From NCBI GenBank assembly GCA_903921605.1, contig CAIXQV010000997.1, positions 1 to 23,539 of the forward strand: a stretch of 23,539 nt of DNA, written 5' to 3'. A program made the position numbers and the translations under genes. The notes under the pieces were generated by a model, which searched no databases, had not been told where the DNA came from, and saw nothing but the letters and a program-made list of their open reading frames with translations. Each line of letters opens with the position of its first letter. Within the stretch, counting starts at the first letter, position 1. Positions 5,594 through 17,653 of the stretch are shown here, one piece after another. Source of the DNA: an uncultured Planctomycetaceae bacterium. Lineage in GTDB: Bacteria > Planctomycetota > Planctomycetia > Planctomycetales > Planctomycetaceae.

Positions 5594-6772
5594 TTATTCT
5601 TTGTCGTCAGTTCCATAGAACACCAGGTTCACGATCTTCCATTCGTCACCCTGTTTGATCAGCGTGAAGTGATCGTAGCCGTATTGTAAACGCGGGCCGG
5701 CGGTCAATTTCCAATACACGACTGCTCGTGCAAGATCGGCTTCAAAGCGAATCTCTGTCTTTACGGGAACCTCGATCGCTTTATGGGCGGCCGATTTGTG
5801 ATAGGCGGCTTGGCCAGCGACAAACGGGACTTTGTTCTGAGTATAGATTTCGCCGCCACGACTGATCTCCTGCACAACGGCACCGTCGGCAAAACAATCT
5901 CCGTAGTCTTTCATACGCTGCTCAGACCATGACAGGAAATAGTGCTTGATCAGTTTCTCGACAGCCGGCAGCTCAGGGTTTGTGGCCTTGCTCGACTTCT
6001 CTGCCGACTGAGTTGTTGGCTCAGCGGCGATCAGTGATGTCGGAGTTGCTTTTGTGTCAGCGGCTTTCTGAGTTGTTCGAAGAGTTCGCCAGGTTTCCAG
6101 ATAATCCCCCACGAACTGTTGAATGTACTTCGCGTCCACGCGTTTTTCGCTTACGGTTGCTCCGAGCGGCGGGACATGGCAAAACGCGACATCCAGCTCA
6201 GGATGTCTGGCATGCAGATACTCAAGCGAATACAGAGTCTCCTCGCAAAGATACTGACCTGCTCGGCGGGATACTCGAACGGGATAACCCTTGTCGGCCA
6301 GTCGGTGCTGCATTGCGTCACAGTCAAGAGACGCCTTGAACTCCGCCGGACCATCAGCAGTAATCGCAATCTTCGCGGGAAGTTTGCCGTCGTTATCCGG
6401 AATCTGACCGCGCTGGTTGGAGGCGCGAGATTCAAGAGCAAATCCGTCTGCACCTCCCTGACCAAAGGAGAAGACAGCGACTGGTTTATGCTGTTCAATC
6501 AGCTTCTGCAGATGCTTGAGCGGTTCGCCCCAGACAACAGGTAGCTCATGAGCGATGATTTGATGTCCGTGCCATTCTGTTTGATGCAGATTTCGAATGC
6601 CCTGCCATGAAGGATTTGCGGGACGGCTGGTGCCAAACGGTTCGAATCCTGTCAGCAAAATCACAGGCCTTGCATCATCCGCGAGGACTGCGGGTGAAAT
6701 CTGCGCCAATGGTGTCAGCCAGTTTGTACACGCACAGAGAACAGTCAGGAGCAACATCCGTGGAGGCATCAT
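5594..6772 (-). CDS. Exported pyroglutamyl-peptidase I (C15) fused to an NTF2/SnoaL-like domain
   Basis: From the ATG at 6772 this encodes 392 residues. A short hydrophobic leader (residues 6-30) precedes a C15 cysteine peptidase domain (about 36-230) that opens with VILLTGFEPFG. The family's catalytic triad is visible: Glu114 in ALESRASN, Cys176 in AGQYLCEETLY and His199 in AFCHVP. C15 enzymes remove N-terminal pyroglutamate from peptides. After a Thr/Ala/Lys-rich linker (about 231-268) comes a domain of about 120 residues (269-392) resembling NTF2/SnoaL folds (KHYFLSWSEQRMKDYGDCF, then alternating strands ending WKIVNLVFYG). Most C15 enzymes are cytoplasmic and single-domain, so both the leader and the fusion are unusual. 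Cys15 in LCAC could be a lipobox. The frame extends upstream to an ATG at 6889, but 6772 has GCGAGA upstream and yields the leader. Confidence 0.82.
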   Translation of the reverse strand: MMPPRMLLLTVLCACTNWLTPLAQISPAVLADDARPVILLTGFEPFGTSRPANPSWQGIRNLHQTEWHGHQIIAHELPVVWGEPLKHLQKLIEQHKPVAVFSFGQGGADGFALESRASNQRGQIPDNDGKLPAKIAITADGPAEFKASLDCDAMQHRLADKGYPVRVSRRAGQYLCEETLYSLEYLHARHPELDVAFCHVPPLGATVSEKRVDAKYIQQFVGDYLETWRTLRTTQKAADTKATPTSLIAAEPTTQSAEKSSKATNPELPAVEKLIKHYFLSWSEQRMKDYGDCFADGAVVQEISRGGEIYTQNKVPFVAGQAAYHKSAAHKAIEVPVKTEIRFEADLARAVVYWKLTAGPRLQYGYDHFTLIKQGDEWKIVNLVFYGTDDKE

Positions 6773-6962
6773 GAATCTATCTCGCTGAATCAGGCAAATC
6801 GCGTTCGTTCGGACGACGCATTGTGAGACACCGGAAACTATCAGTGAAGCAAGGATCGTACGGTACAGCCCTCGTCGCTCATGTCGCAATTCTTCGTCGC
6901 GAACAATTGATCGGGGCGAGAGCGAAAAGATTCTCAGGGGACATCAATAAGTAAAAGGCACG

Positions 6963-7395: not shown

Positions 7396-8202
7396 TTATT
7401 GATGCACGGGCTTCCGTAATGTCGCACCTGCGTTGGCCGCGAGATTCCCACCGTCCATGGGAATCAGAGTTCCAGTGATCCACTCCGAGGCATCCGAGGC
7501 CAGCAGCACAATCAGGCCCTGAATATCGGTTGGCTTTCCCAATCGACCGCACGGTATTCCGCTTAGCCATTGCTGTTCGATCGCAGGATCAGCAGCGATG
7601 CGTTTTTCGAGGCTGGGGTTCAGCACCTGAGCGGGCAAAATCGCATTGCAGCGAATCCCCTGAGCAGCCCATTCAGTGCTTAGTTCGCGAGTCATCTGGA
7701 TGACAGCTCCCATCGCCATGCTGTACGCAATATGGCCTCGACCGAGAGCTGTTGTGCTTGCCAGTGAGCCGATATTCACAATGCTTCCTTTGCCAGCCAT
7801 CAGCATGCGGCGCCCCGCTTCCTGACACATCAGAAACCGTCCGAAAACGAGATTCTGAAAGACCTGCTGCACCGTCGTCAGCGGCATCTCTTCAGGTTTG
7901 CCGAGGATGCCTTCTCCGGCGATATTGGCGAGGAAATCAATACGTCCGAACTGATGATCAAGGACCGTGAACAGCTCCTGAATTTCATCCGCATCTGAGA
8001 CATCCGTGCGACGATAAACGGCTTTGCGACCGGTCTTCAGGATCTCGTCAGTGGTGGCTTTCAGTCCCGGTTCATTCAGGTCCGCGAGCAGCAAATCCGC
8101 ACCATGTGCGGCCAGAGCCAACGCGGCCGCTTTGCCAAGACCGCTCGCGGCCCCGGAAACGATTGCCACTTTGCCGGAAAGATCAAAAAGAGAACTGGTC
8201 AT
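7396..8202 (-). CDS. SDR-family oxidoreductase homologue lacking the catalytic lysine
   Basis: This 268-residue classical short-chain dehydrogenase/reductase has a Rossmann dinucleotide motif SGAASGLG (16-23). Asp41 ends the second strand (LLADL), which suggests NAD(H) preference. The usual NNAG motif reads NIAG (93-96). The expected N-S-Y-K tetrad reads Asn117, Ser146, Tyr160 and Met164: the active-site segment is HIAYSMAMGAV where the family has YxxxK. The ATG codon for Met164 is unambiguous on the strand. Loss of this Lys normally abolishes or greatly lowers activity, so it may be a binding protein or use altered chemistry. AAGG lies eight bases before the ATG at 8202. The start is only 27 bp after the stop of the EutBC gene, indicating one operon and a likely role linked to its aldehyde product or amino-alcohol substrate (inference). 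Confidence 0.88.
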   Translation of the reverse strand: MTSSLFDLSGKVAIVSGAASGLGKAAALALAAHGADLLLADLNEPGLKATTDEILKTGRKAVYRRTDVSDADEIQELFTVLDHQFGRIDFLANIAGEGILGKPEEMPLTTVQQVFQNLVFGRFLMCQEAGRRMLMAGKGSIVNIGSLASTTALGRGHIAYSMAMGAVIQMTRELSTEWAAQGIRCNAILPAQVLNPSLEKRIAADPAIEQQWLSGIPCGRLGKPTDIQGLIVLLASDASEWITGTLIPMDGGNLAANAGATLRKPVHQ

Positions 8203-8229: not shown

Positions 8230-10506
8230 CTACATCTGCCGCAGGATTCGCACGGCGTCGACGGCTGCCGCATCCGGTGCCATGGTCGTGAGGGAAATGC
8301 CTGAGACAACTCTTGTAATGTTATGGTCCACTTTGTCGGGAATCGACCATTCTGAACCATCAGCGGTTGTCATGTAAATTGACAGTGTGTGATGGCCACT
8401 TCCGGGACGCTCGCCAATGATATGCAAAAGCGTGAATCGCCCCTTGCGGCCTCCGAACATTTGCTCACCGATACGATAGCCAGCTCGAACTCGTCCCGCA
8501 TCGACAACCAGATGCTCTGGCGAAGTCCTGAAGCCCGCGGTCTGCAGTTCTTTGCGGAGTCCGGTGATCAGGCTCATCAATTGATCGCCGTCGGTGACAG
8601 CCTGCGCGTTTAGTCCATCGGAGATAACGATCTGAGTATTCAACTGATCATTCCGACGGCGTATCCCATCAATCATCTCGCGAGACTGCTCGGAGAGATG
8701 CTCACCGGACACCGGATGCAGAATATAGTCGGTTCGGTCCGCTGACTGACTGCGGAGTCGAACGGCGTTCGGGATGGTCGCGACGAAGGCGTCATCCAGT
8801 TCTTTCCAGATTGAGATTCTGGCGTCTTCATAAATATGCTGAATCTGTTTGGCCAGTTCGGGCTGAAGATCAGCCGGGCTGGCTCCGTAACCTTCCGCCA
8901 CGAACACACCTCGCGAGCGGACTTCGTCGATGCGATCTCTGGCTTCCTGCCGGATAGCATCATCCTCGCGAGCGTCGTTCTTCCTTCGGCAGTACTGCAG
9001 ATAAACCCACGTCGGGTCGCCAAAGTGCGGCGTTGGTTTTTCGTTTTCGTCGACAATGTTTAACGACTGGAAAAAGTTCCACATGCGATCATTGACGCGG
9101 AATCCGAATTTCTCACGGATGTGGACATGGTCCTGATAGCCTGTGGTCAGATATCCCAGCATCGGGTCAATTCGCGTCGGCAAGGCCATCAGATAGCCTG
9201 GGTTGGCCGGCATAATCTGATCAATGCACCAGCCAAGATCGTCGAGACTGACATCCATATGCAGCGTGGAGCAAACGTCGAGTCCGATCATGAGGCCGTG
9301 AAGTTTTCCCATCACGATATCTTCAAGGCAGCATCGAACAAGCTGCTCTCGGGAGCGGAAGACTTCGGGTCCGATAAAGCCCGCAACATCATTCAGATGG
9401 ACCCACGGCGGACGGTTTTGACCGCGTTTCTTCAGGGCCTCGGCAGTGACAGTGGTAAGAGCTCTTGCGAAACCATATTTACGAGACTCATGAATCACCA
9501 TGTCCGTGCCGTGGCCATGTCCGTTTGTGAAGTCGGCCCCCTGCCCCGTTTCAAAATAGAGTGCATAACGTCCTGTGCGAGATCTCGCATGCAGCTTCAT
9601 TTTTTCGACGGTCAGATCGAAAGTTTTGTTGGCGGCATCGTTACCGGCAATGCTCTGGAACCAGAACTCTGTGGAGCCAGGATGTTTGCGTTCCACTTCC
9701 GCCTGAACGTCGATATGGGACAGGACACAATGAGGAAGGACATCTGTGATTTCGAATGTCGCGAGAATATCCTGCAGAGCATTCTCGACGGCCGCGACAG
9801 ATTCGGGAGTGCTTGAAACCGGATTCGTTCCGATCAACACATCACCGACCCCGTACGCGAATGCATCGAAGACCTGCCAGCGAATATCGTCGATATTGTC
9901 GGTGGGTGAGTTCGGCTGAATTCGAGCCCCCATGTAGCCTTTTGCGCCGAGTTGAGTGCCGGGCAGTGGGTTGAAGACCTTCGCGCCAACTTTGATGAGT
10001 TCGTCGTTACTCATCAAACGCACAACGCAGGCGATAACGTCGCTGGAGAGACCATTCCGAATCTCGTGAATGTCCTGTTCGCTGCGCTCCAGAAGAAAGG
10101 TCCTGAGATCGCCAAGCGTCATTTCACCAAGGCGAGTTCTCAGGCTGGCATCGAGATCCGCGTTGATGAATTCAAGCAGTTCATCCTTGAATGGGGGATG
10201 TTCATCGATTTGTTGAACCGTGGTGCGAGACAGGAGATTGCGAGCCAGCGTTCGAGTTGCATCGTCAACCGCGGCGACCCCCAGAATCTGATCGCCCTCT
10301 TTAAACTCATTCGCCGCACCCAGCATCTGACGATAGACGTGCTCGTTCCATCTGCCCTGGGTTCGTTGAATCCAGACAAAGAGGTCTTCGTTTTGCGGAG
10401 CCTCAGAAACGGGGCTTAGCATCGCGGACGCTGTGGAACGCGGAGTGCTTGCGACAGCAGAAATGCCGGCAATTCCGGCGGCCAGAAACCGTCTGCGATG
10501 TAACAT
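8230..10506 (-). CDS. eutBC: Ethanolamine ammonia-lyase EutB-EutC fusion with Tat signal peptide
   Basis: From the ATG at 10506 this encodes 758 residues. Ethanolamine ammonia-lyase is an adenosylcobalamin enzyme that converts ethanolamine to acetaldehyde and ammonia, normally from separate EutB and EutC chains. Residues 1-28 are a Tat leader (RRRFLAAG, hydrophobic stretch, then STASA as a cleavage site). Residues about 40-500 match EutB: ARIQPNSPTD (Arg195, Gln197), IGTNPV (Asn228), WFQSIAG (Phe283), YFETGQGAD (Glu319) and GLDVC (Asp410). These correspond to the substrate-binding residues described for E. coli EutB. Residues about 595-758 match the EutC core: VISDGLNA, GRVRAGYRIGE and IGERPGSGHHTLS. 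The RxGxR segment of the EutC N-terminus is not recognisable. AAGGA lies eight bases before 10506; a longer frame to 10659 would bury the Tat motif. No eut shell or reactivase genes are nearby. Confidence 0.9.
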   Translation of the reverse strand: MLHRRRFLAAGIAGISAVASTPRSTASAMLSPVSEAPQNEDLFVWIQRTQGRWNEHVYRQMLGAANEFKEGDQILGVAAVDDATRTLARNLLSRTTVQQIDEHPPFKDELLEFINADLDASLRTRLGEMTLGDLRTFLLERSEQDIHEIRNGLSSDVIACVVRLMSNDELIKVGAKVFNPLPGTQLGAKGYMGARIQPNSPTDNIDDIRWQVFDAFAYGVGDVLIGTNPVSSTPESVAAVENALQDILATFEITDVLPHCVLSHIDVQAEVERKHPGSTEFWFQSIAGNDAANKTFDLTVEKMKLHARSRTGRYALYFETGQGADFTNGHGHGTDMVIHESRKYGFARALTTVTAEALKKRGQNRPPWVHLNDVAGFIGPEVFRSREQLVRCCLEDIVMGKLHGLMIGLDVCSTLHMDVSLDDLGWCIDQIMPANPGYLMALPTRIDPMLGYLTTGYQDHVHIREKFGFRVNDRMWNFFQSLNIVDENEKPTPHFGDPTWVYLQYCRRKNDAREDDAIRQEARDRIDEVRSRGVFVAEGYGASPADLQPELAKQIQHIYEDARISIWKELDDAFVATIPNAVRLRSQSADRTDYILHPVSGEHLSEQSREMIDGIRRRNDQLNTQIVISDGLNAQAVTDGDQLMSLITGLRKELQTAGFRTSPEHLVVDAGRVRAGYRIGEQMFGGRKGRFTLLHIIGERPGSGHHTLSIYMTTADGSEWSIPDKVDHNITRVVSGISLTTMAPDAAAVDAVRILRQM

Positions 10507-10923
10507 GGGCCGAATCCTTGCAAAGCTGCGTTCAAGTAGTTCCGCTCCGAATGTAATCCTCGGAGCCCCAAACTGCCAACGACTTTCGTCCGGCCCGGCC
10601 AGCCAATGAATTTGGTGTCCTTCGTTGTGGAAATCTGGAATAAGTGGTCTTGTCTGCATTTGACGAAGATGGCTTGTACTCCTATCCTGACATCAGCATT
10701 TGTGCATTATTGCACGATGCCCCGCCGGAAGTTTGCCTGCCTTGAACCCCACCCTCACCCGTATCGCCTTTCTCAAGGGTTTTGTCCCGGAAGCGTTGGC
10801 GTTTGAGCGGCAATACTATTCGGTCAAAAATGCCTGCTGGTTTTGATTCCCTTGGTGTGTTTGTGCGTTGACGGAGCGACGCGAACGATCGGGTCCCTGC
10901 GATTCCGATCTCGGAGTTGTTTC
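10507..10923. other. Divergent intergenic region between eutBC and peroxiredoxin genes
   Basis: About 417 bp separate the two divergent start codons chosen here. Both flanking frames stay open some way into it (to 10659 on the minus strand and from 10843 on the plus strand), but the better ribosome-binding sites favour the inner starts. It should contain both promoters. I saw no convincing -35/-10 pair, riboswitch or RNA gene. In particular I could not recognise a cobalamin riboswitch upstream of eutBC. Confidence 0.5.
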
Positions 10924-15114: not shown

Positions 15115-16020
15115 ATGGGCTTCTTCAATCATGCTGACTACGTCGAAATGACGGTTCACTTTCGCTGCAATCTGCGATGCCGTCACTGCATGATTCTGGA
15201 CACCATGGATTGGTTACGTCCGGCCGATGAACGCGAGTTCTCCGACTTGCTGGAAGAGAATCGCCGAACTTCCCGATGGAAGGGCCTCATACTCACCGGC
15301 TCTGAAGTCACTCTTCGCTCAGACCTTCCCCTGATGGCTCAGCGAGCACGGGACGCTGGTTTTGAACACGTGCGGATTCAGACCCATGGGATGCGACTGG
15401 CTGATCTTCGCTACTGTGAAACTTTAATCGATGCGGGTATCAATGAGTTCTTTATCAGCCTGACGGCTGACACTGCGGAACTTCACGATTCAATTACCGA
15501 AGTGCCCGGCTCCTTTGAGAAAACTCTGCAGGCGATTCGTAACCTCGCTCAATTTCCAGGCGTGCGCCAGATGACCAATACTGTCATCACGAAGCTCAGT
15601 TACCAGTCTCTGCCGAAAGTGGTAGAGCTGCTGAAGGAGGTTCCCAACCTCGTCGAAATGGACTTCTGGAATTACTGGCCGATGACAGAAGACGGAGATC
15701 CGAACCTCCTTGTTTCTCATTTCGAAGTGCAGCCGTTTCTTCGTTCTGCGATTCGTTTGGCTCGCGCAATGGGGCGACAGGTCGAGGTTAAGAATTTTCC
15801 TCACTGCCTGCTGGTATCTGACGCTGATGCGTTGGTCAATGATCAACCGGAACTGCGAATTGATCCTCGGTTCTGGAATGAGTTTAACCGGAATGGGTTT
15901 CATCAATGTGCGTTTCGCGAAGTTTGCGGTTCTCGACAATGTCTGGGGCTGAATGCGGCGTACGTCCGAGAATTCGGCTGGCATGAAGACCTGCTGAAGC
16001 CTCTTCCGAGGAGTGCCTGA
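15115..16020 (+). CDS. Radical SAM enzyme with C-terminal cysteine cluster
   Basis: This 301-residue protein has the radical SAM cluster motif CNLRCRHC (Cys18, Cys22, Cys25), which binds the [4Fe-4S] cluster that cleaves S-adenosylmethionine. The usual GGEP motif reads LTGSEVTLRSDL (60-71), followed by a classic half-barrel (HVRIQTHGMRL, INEFFISLTA, TNTVITK). The C-terminus has four more cysteines (Cys231, Cys265, Cys271, Cys276), ending CLGLNAAYVREFG. This resembles auxiliary-cluster (SPASM/Twitch-like) enzymes that modify peptides or proteins. No RRE precursor-binding domain is seen at the N-terminus. AGGA lies about ten bases before the ATG. It is followed after 97 bp by a tryptophan-halogenase-like gene in the same direction. 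The substrate is unknown, and sequence alone does not distinguish a RiPP maturase from other roles. Confidence 0.88.
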   Translation: MGFFNHADYVEMTVHFRCNLRCRHCMILDTMDWLRPADEREFSDLLEENRRTSRWKGLILTGSEVTLRSDLPLMAQRARDAGFEHVRIQTHGMRLADLRYCETLIDAGINEFFISLTADTAELHDSITEVPGSFEKTLQAIRNLAQFPGVRQMTNTVITKLSYQSLPKVVELLKEVPNLVEMDFWNYWPMTEDGDPNLLVSHFEVQPFLRSAIRLARAMGRQVEVKNFPHCLLVSDADALVNDQPELRIDPRFWNEFNRNGFHQCAFREVCGSRQCLGLNAAYVREFGWHEDLLKPLPRSA

Positions 16021-16117: not shown

Positions 16118-17653
16118 ATGAGTAGCAAAGTCGCAGAGTCGAACAAACAGATTGTAATTGTTGGTGGCGGGACATCCGGATGGATGACGGCTGCTCTGAT
16201 GTCACAGGTCATGCGATCTTCTGGGCAATCTATTACCGTTATCGAGCCGCCTGGTCCGCGTGGAATCGGTGTTGGTGAAGCGTCCGTGATTTCCATGGTG
16301 CAGTTGCTGAAAAAGCTCGGTGCTGATGAAGTGGAGATGATGCAGCGGTGTGAAGCGACCTACAAGCTGGGAATTCGATTCTGCGACTGGTACGAAAAGG
16401 GGCACGACAACTGGCATCCGTTTGGAGTTTGTGGCGCAAGAATTGACGGGCGAGATTTGTTTCCCTTCTGGCTGGCGGATTCAAAACGATTCGGTACCCC
16501 GGAGCCCTATGAAGCTTATTCTCTGCAATGGGCCGCATCGAATGCGGGCAAGGCACCTCACGCGTTTCATTGCCCGTCACCGATTGCACAGACTCAGTCG
16601 TATGCATTTCATTTCAACGCAGAAGCACTGGCTGGCTGGCTGCGCGATATCGCTCTGCGAAACGGCGTGAAAGAGATTGTCGGGGCGGTTCAGGATGCTG
16701 AATTCGCGGATAGCGGAGATGTGACTGCTGTCACACTGTTCGCCGGGGAAAGAGTCGAAGGTGACTTCTTCGTGGATTGTTCCGGCTTTCAGTCCGTGCT
16801 GATGCATAACGCTCTGGGAGATCCATTCGAGAGTTGGAACAGCCAACTGCTCTGTGATCGTGCCGTTGCTTTCAAGATTTCTGCTGAAGGTTCTGTGCCA
16901 CCTTATACGAAGTCCCATGCTCTGTCGGCAGGCTGGGCCTGGCATATTCCACTGGCCTCGCATCTGGGATTGGGGTATGTCTACAGTTCACAGTTCATTT
17001 CCGATGAAGCCGCCTGGGAGGAACTACGGCAGCATGCAAAACTCAATCCCGGTGCCGGACAGGAACCTCGCTTCCTGAAGATGCGTGTCGGTCGTCAGCA
17101 GTCGTTCTGGAAACAGAATGTGGTTGCCATTGGGCTTTCAGCCGGTTTCCTGGAACCGCTTGAGTCCAGCGGCATTCATCTGAGTCAGGTCGGAATCGAA
17201 CTGCTGCTGAAGAATTTTCCATCCGGCCGCAATGTGGACTCGTTGCGTGATTATTACAACCAGCGTATGGCGTTGATCTACGATGAAGTCCGCGACTTTG
17301 TGCAGATGCACTATCGACTCAGTCGACGCACGGACAGCGCATTCTGGATTGCTGCGCGAGAAGCGGAGATTTCCGGTGATTTGAAACGACGGCTTAATCT
17401 TTACGATGAAGTCGGGATGCTGGACAATTTGCAGGCGGAAGCATTTACTGAGACCAGTTACTTCCATCTGCTGACTGGGAACAAACGCCTGCCACGGCGA
17501 GCCCCTGCCCTTGCGGCTTCGGCTGATCCGCATATGGTTCATTCAATATTGGCTTCGATCAAAGCCCAGAATGACCAAGCGCTCAGCGATCTGCCGCCCC
17601 ACGAGGAGTTGCTGGGGCGGATTCATCGGATTCACCTTGCCAGGGCTTCCTGA
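16118..17653 (+). CDS. Flavin-dependent tryptophan halogenase family protein
   Basis: This 511-residue protein starts at an ATG with GGAG ten bases upstream. It has the FAD-binding VGGGTSGW motif (15-22), VGEAS (52-56), and a lysine in ATYKLGIRF (Lys83) at the position of the catalytic Lys79 of PrnA, which relays HOCl. The diagnostic WxWxIP motif is present as WAWHIP (273-278), and FLEPLESSGI (344-353) includes Glu346, matching the second active-site residue of PrnA. The protein is therefore probably catalytically competent. Family members use reduced flavin and O2 to halogenate tryptophan or other electron-rich rings; the halide and substrate cannot be read from sequence. No flavin reductase is adjacent. 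It probably shares a transcript with the radical SAM gene. Confidence 0.92.
   Translation: MSSKVAESNKQIVIVGGGTSGWMTAALMSQVMRSSGQSITVIEPPGPRGIGVGEASVISMVQLLKKLGADEVEMMQRCEATYKLGIRFCDWYEKGHDNWHPFGVCGARIDGRDLFPFWLADSKRFGTPEPYEAYSLQWAASNAGKAPHAFHCPSPIAQTQSYAFHFNAEALAGWLRDIALRNGVKEIVGAVQDAEFADSGDVTAVTLFAGERVEGDFFVDCSGFQSVLMHNALGDPFESWNSQLLCDRAVAFKISAEGSVPPYTKSHALSAGWAWHIPLASHLGLGYVYSSQFISDEAAWEELRQHAKLNPGAGQEPRFLKMRVGRQQSFWKQNVVAIGLSAGFLEPLESSGIHLSQVGIELLLKNFPSGRNVDSLRDYYNQRMALIYDEVRDFVQMHYRLSRRTDSAFWIAAREAEISGDLKRRLNLYDEVGMLDNLQAEAFTETSYFHLLTGNKRLPRRAPALAASADPHMVHSILASIKAQNDQALSDLPPHEELLGRIHRIHLARAS

Follow-up and report, generated by a model that had tools for sequence, protein, structure and literature searches.

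A fused EutB-EutC gene with a Tat-type leader

The stretch analyzed here (the window; 23,539 nucleotides of contig CAIXQV010000997.1 from an uncultured Planctomycetaceae bacterium) carries a gene in which EutB and EutC of ethanolamine ammonia-lyase are joined in one chain behind a leader of the twin-arginine translocation (Tat) type (Table 1). The open reading frame (ORF) is read on the minus strand; a preliminary description of the region gave no strand, and on the plus strand the frame across 8230-10506 is interrupted by many stops. In its longest form the ORF starts at ATG 10659 and encodes 809 amino acids (aa). Pfam matches are strong for both EutB (E 9e-136) and EutC (E 1.3e-29; 103.7 bits against a cut-off of 25.8), and the EutC core is fused at the C-terminus as previously described. 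With NCBIfam, EutB scores above its cut-off (590 bits against 554), whereas EutC scores below the equivalog cut-off (77 bits against 230). A predicted model agrees in fold with the solved EutB and EutC structures, and the canonical proteins are the best sequence and (for the predicted model) fold matches among solved structures. Confidence in the model (pLDDT, predicted local distance difference test) is below 50 over residues 1-29, and residue 40 is the first to align with Escherichia coli EutB.

Table 1. Features of the lyase locus, given as positions within the window
Feature	Position	Strand	Remarks
Fused EutB-EutC gene	8230..10506	-	758 aa from ATG 10506, stop included
Tat-type leader, residues 1-28	10423..10506	-	RRRFL followed by a hydrophobic stretch; STASA precedes a possible cleavage site
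Shine-Dalgarno-like AAGGA upstream of ATG 10506	10515..10519	-	Sequence reading
EutB domain, residues 58-492	9031..10335	-	Pfam; active-site R195, Q197, N228, E319, F377, D410
Linker between EutB and EutC, residues 503-548	8863..9000	-	Predicted helix 515-531; limits by our reading
EutC domain, residues 554-758	8233..8847	-	Pfam; R672, V673, GERPG 698-702 conserved
Short-chain dehydrogenase (SDR)	7396..8202	-	27 bases downstream of the lyase gene, same strand

Translation start of the lyase gene

The leader of the window protein, MLHRRRFLAAGIAGISAVASTPRSTASA, reads as a Tat signal peptide, with a twin-arginine motif, a hydrophobic stretch and a signal-peptidase-like site all present. The start was examined by counting substitutions at the three codon positions against relatives of 95-98% identity (loci L001, L002 and L003). 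Over the 51 codons upstream of ATG 10506 the counts are 2, 6 and 5 for L001, 2, 5 and 5 for L002, and 1, 2 and 1 for L003 (for which 84 of the 153 bases are missing), and over the first 50 codons downstream they are 1, 0 and 7, 2, 1 and 7, and 3, 2 and 9, such that a third-position pattern appears downstream and is absent upstream. The AAGGA motif lies 9-13 bases 5' of this ATG, and in L002 a stop closes the frame upstream of it. This ATG is the likely start, and the Tat-type leader previously placed there is supported. It is highly improbable that translation starts further downstream, for example at Met29, leaving the leader untranslated. There is an ATG at codon 29 in the window, and codons 1-28 taken by themselves show a modest contrast, with a small synonymous excess (3 synonymous and 2 other changes for L002, 3 and 1 for L003); but AAGGA precedes Met1, a twin-arginine motif lies within the first 50 residues of 110 of 120 homologues (the best 120 of 5148), and in 77 of these 110 no Met occurs over the 25 residues that begin at RR+8 (possible GTG and TTG starts were left out of this count). 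The form RRxIL is found in four further proteins of the same 120 (P0087, P0100, P0113 and P0122). G001, the nearest genome, encodes TatC, as do 17 of 17 genomes searched, a set to which the source genome does not belong.

Conservation of active-site residues

Residues were compared across 189 fused rows including the window (near-copies not thinned), with E. coli EutB as the ruler and with E. coli itself and two fusions of another type (L075 and L078, below) set aside. The six EutB active-site residues listed in the preliminary description are all found at the positions it gave, Arg195, Gln197, Asn228, Phe283, Glu319 and Asp410 corresponding to E. coli positions 160, 162, 193, 245, 287 and 362. 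These belong to a set (R160, Q162, N193, F245, S247, F258, E287, F329, D362 and L402 in E. coli numbering) that is identical in 189 of 189 rows, as are EutC R206, V207 and the GERP motif at 227-230. As judged from sequence, the single chain carries EutB and EutC with the EutB active-site residues retained. The role of Arg160 has reportedly been a subject of study. D362 is kept throughout the exported clade described below, and in L075 and L078 an Ala is aligned there.

One alternative, which we consider very improbable, is that an exported protein has lost cobalamin binding and serves another role. EutC is indeed the more divergent half, with 22-24% identity to E. coli compared with about 31% for EutB, but the invariance of R206, V207 and GERP and the lack of drift at the EutB active site argue against such a loss.

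Leaders among fused homologues

Leaders were called with a heuristic of our own, rather than a trained predictor, in 240 fused homologues comprising the best 120 of 5148 from one search and the best 120 of 4352 from a second. Export-type leaders were called in 209 and none in 31. When residues 2-45 were shuffled the export-type calls fell to 48 of 240, and among neighboring ORFs there were 340 of 910; twin-arginine calls, with or without a lipobox, were made in 164 of 240 homologues compared with 7 of 240 shuffled sequences and 41 of 910 neighboring ORFs. By eye, 13 of the 31 show a questionable start or a motif that the heuristic missed, and were labeled unclear (seven of these are tree rows), and 18 look leaderless, several of them named as myxobacteria. 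The strain name Pyxidicoccus sp. 3LG is attached both to a clade member with an export-type call (P0142) and to a leaderless protein (P0184).

Among 75 loci, each given the strongest call from among several starts, a choice that favors positives, 66 are export-type. The remaining nine comprise five fragments, L008 with a weak twin-arginine leader, the leaderless L079, and L075 and L078. The heuristic missed twin-arginine leaders in L008, P0036 and P0112, gave a false export-type label to L117, called KR or RK pairs near Sec-like peptides Tat (L105 and L107 look Sec by eye), and called L108, which also looks Sec by eye, lipoprotein-like.

Phylogeny and distribution

A FastTree phylogeny was built from 139 thinned rows, omitting rows at least 78% identical to a kept row, the later Desulfobacterota loci, five fragment loci shorter than 700 aa (L040, L056, L064, L067 and L068), the canonical L070-L073, P0123 (a copy of L079) and L076 (the nearest genome's copy). 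A clade of 136 rows is separated from E. coli and from L075 and L078 with full local support, and 122 of its members have export-type leaders by the heuristic: 88 Tat-like (RR, RK or KR), 27 Tat-lipoprotein-like and 7 Sec-like, with 7 having none and 7 unclear. Four changes between export and none are needed over the whole tree, outgroup included. The leaderless rows form two groups plus L008 and, with deep forks open in a tree made by FastTree only, may reflect either loss of a leader or an original lack of one. The canonical EutB proteins checked have no leader. Across the tree one kind of leader is exchanged for another, and export as such is kept.

These patterns bear on whether the hydrophobic N-terminus could be an anchor that stays uncleaved, or a relic without function, on a cytoplasmic enzyme, which we regard as improbable. 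Known systems supply and reactivate the coenzyme in the cytoplasm, and leaderless relatives, which the preliminary description had singled out as telling against export and which do so here in part, exist in small number: L079, from a planctomycete of another family, P0124, P0151 and a myxobacterial group. The starred set of 17 rows to which the window belongs, however, comprises 14 Tat-like and 3 unclear leaders. A relic is unlikely to persist in several forms, as the Tat-, lipobox- and Sec-like leaders do, and basic residues before a hydrophobic stretch should place the part that follows outside.

EutB is found in 10 of 149 Planctomycetota genomes, of which four have canonical proteins (L070-L073), two have the EutA-type fusions (G062 and G082) and four have members of the exported clade, with a leader in G001, G049 and G070 and without one in G104. 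In Desulfobacterota 26 of 297 genomes gave matches and 14 have clade members (L099-L112), all export-type: 7 Sec, 6 Tat and 1 lipoprotein-like by machine, and about 10 Sec by eye. Six loci were fetched from the 12 other genomes, and five are leaderless, the sixth being L117. Predicted export is a property of a clade that crosses phyla, and is not peculiar to this planctomycete. The proposal that Tat carries out a loaded enzyme cannot hold for every member either, since leaders of the Sec-like kind are found in Desulfobacterota and Syntrophotalea.

Three leaderless Desulfobacterota fusions of 705-706 aa (L114, L115 and L118), lying outside the tree sampling, share 55% identity with E. coli EutB, and L114 and L115 have 27% identity to the window protein. 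Since these are canonical-like, far from the exported clade and leaderless, the EutB-EutC fusion would seem to have arisen more than once, which suggests that the exported clade is the one in which fusion is paired with export.

Genomic context

Pfam scanning of 20 ORFs in the window revealed no EutA, EutH, EutE or shell family, and BLAST (1e-6) with E. coli EutA, EutH, EutE and EutL gave no matches in 83 neighborhoods (the window, 69 loci and 13 Desulfobacterota stretches). A microcompartment-type eut arrangement, with shell, EutA, EutH and EutE genes beside the lyase gene, was not found. The earlier statement that the lyase has neither shell nor reactivase thus holds locally, but each of the 5 planctomycete carriers searched has shell genes at sites separate from the lyase gene, and we rejected the absence of EutA as a hallmark of the clade, as genomes with canonical EutB also lack it. 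Counting EutA only where a match covers most of the 475 positions, a first set of 17 genomes has it in one of 11 clade carriers (G153, two copies), in both of the genomes with EutA-type fusions and in none of the four canonical planctomycetes (G106 has a partial match under the cut-off), and a second set of 26 has it in one of 14 clade carriers (G415) and one of 12 others (G324). Raw matches were seen in 10 of 17 and 26 of 26 genomes respectively, the short ones presumably being other proteins of the same fold. EutH was found in none of 20 genomes, a set that includes non-exported types, so that its absence is not specific.

The SDR gene behind the lyase gene is possibly co-transcribed with it. 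The lyase-SDR order is the same in L001-L003, and in L017 and L022 an SDR gene from that broad cluster precedes the lyase gene. Genes for alcohol dehydrogenases (ADH; zinc ADH in 9 of 83 neighborhoods) and SDRs are shared within small related groups, but as the families are common and there is no background rate we do not read this as a link.

Several other neighbors give hints of function. In L018, L019 and L021 the lyase gene stands directly behind genes for a Peripla_BP_6 binding protein and a GPR1/FUN34/YaaH (acetate-permease-family) protein, a layout that resembles, by description, the substrate-binding and multi-transmembrane proteins around Pelobacter carbinolicus eutBC in the accessible text of PMC3543383. 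A Peripla_BP_2-type binding protein lies near the lyase gene in L121 and L123, an aldehyde:ferredoxin oxidoreductase gene adjoins it in L119, L120 and L122, and an acetate kinase gene adjoins it in L125. Elsewhere in the window, a tryptophan-halogenase-family flavoenzyme (16118-17653, plus strand; Pfam E 2.5e-140) follows by about 100 bases a radical SAM protein gene on the same strand (15115-16020), and a 431-aa frame (5594-6889, minus strand), with a homologous ORF of similar length in L001-L003, joins pyroglutamyl-peptidase and lumazine-binding-2-like domains.

Comparison with known systems

E. coli and Listeria EutBC (PDB 3abo and 2qez) share both folds and the active-site residues with the window protein but are two chains, whereas the window protein is one chain with a leader, its EutC shortened at the front (the Pfam match begins at profile position 31) and only about 50 residues separating the two domains. 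The two-chain enzyme is not, however, the only known form as had been assumed, since a single-chain fusion was in print in 2012 for P. carbinolicus eutBC1 and eutBC2, located among cobalamin genes in a genome without eutA; the accessible text of that report (PMC3543383) makes no mention of an export signal. We compared instead the close clade homologue from Syntrophotalea acetylenivorans (P0156), which has a Sec-like rather than a Tat leader. The planctomycete L075 and L078 (G062 and G082) are also EutB-EutC fusions, but with about 28-30% identity, no leader and a position outside the exported clade; both genomes encode EutA, which adjoins the lyase gene in G062.

Corrinoid reductive dehalogenases are Tat-exported, and so combine a corrinoid enzyme with a Tat leader as the window protein does, although they differ in fold and chemistry and use no adenosyl radical. 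In the openly licensed PubMed Central (PMC) literature we found neither a report of an exported ethanolamine lyase nor a paper pairing ethanolamine ammonia-lyase with twin-arginine; subscription papers lie mostly outside that search. The fusion itself has thus been known since 2012, and its export appears to be unreported within that literature.

A probable lyase outside the cytoplasm

We think it probable that the window gene encodes a single-chain adenosylcobalamin (AdoCbl)-dependent ethanolamine ammonia-lyase that acts outside the cytoplasm, exported here by Tat. Export, activity, substrate and the fate of products are all inferred. The coenzyme would be bound and the protein folded before Tat export, ethanolamine, for example from phospholipid head groups, would be split in the periplasm, and the acetaldehyde and ammonia, which the accessible text of PMC5821096 gives as products of EutBC with AdoCbl, would pass into the cell with no permease of their own, to be used as carbon and nitrogen sources.

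Several observations weigh against this interpretation. EutB E257 is replaced by T in 182 of the 189 fused rows, S295 by T in 188 and Q405 by L in 188, and because these changes are family-wide, contacts to coenzyme or substrate may differ. They also lend some weight to an exported AdoCbl enzyme with the same chemistry that acts on a different substrate (choline, for instance, or an amino alcohol of greater length), as does the Pelobacter duplication, taken in the accessible text of PMC3543383 to suggest separate ethanolamine and choline lyases. We consider this alternative unlikely, given that the residues that we take to be substrate contacts are all kept and that canonical EutB and EutC are the best matches among solved structures.

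Also unfavorable to a periplasmic ethanolamine lyase are the leaderless members (18 of 240 database proteins by eye, plus L079), the full-length EutA of two exported-form carriers (G153 and G415), the absence of PF01923 from G156, and the second, distant fused lyase of the carrier G239, 38% identical to the Sec-type query (a 726-aa frame at G239:C277:6167-8176). No Rfam match, cobalamin riboswitch included, was found in the window or 12 loci, and there is no recurring operon partner among the neighbors of 70 loci, which were clustered and selected ones Pfam-scanned, the best families reaching 3 of 69 near neighbors scanned. We know of no AdoCbl supply or enzyme reactivation outside the cytoplasm. 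Reactivation of EutBC by EutA requires ATP, and ethanolamine diffuses across the membrane at neutral pH, according to the accessible text of PMC5821096, so at that pH a cell could do without a permease even if the enzyme stayed inside; at acidic pH export could be needed for this. Where EutA is lacking, newly made enzyme may take the place of repair, or inactivation may be slow. On balance, the preliminary reading is partly supported, and the observation on which it was built is confirmed.

We put forward more tentatively that AdoCbl radical enzymes work extracytoplasmically across phyla, with Tat members carrying their coenzyme out and Sec members capturing periplasmic AdoCbl, in which case extracytoplasmic AdoCbl pools, and reactivation independent of cytoplasmic ATP, would have to exist. 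Sec substrates cross the membrane unfolded, so in Sec-type members the coenzyme would have to be met and bound outside, and how they take it up there is the sharpest question raised.

Described ethanolamine lyases are cytoplasmic and often caged to contain acetaldehyde, and repair of their coenzyme costs ATP. An exporting clade would move AdoCbl radical chemistry to the periplasm, where the coenzyme would somehow have to be loaded and renewed. Planctomycetes, myxobacteria, Bacteroidota, rhizobia and Desulfobacterota would then have a means of drawing on ethanolamine for nitrogen and carbon at the cell surface. This hypothesis is testable, as the named carriers in the search listings include the cultured genera Gimesia, Myxococcus, Echinicola, Algoriphagus, Ensifer and Syntrophotalea. 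Several phyla keep some export signal although its type changes, and B12 radical chemistry outside the cytoplasm may run in many bacteria.
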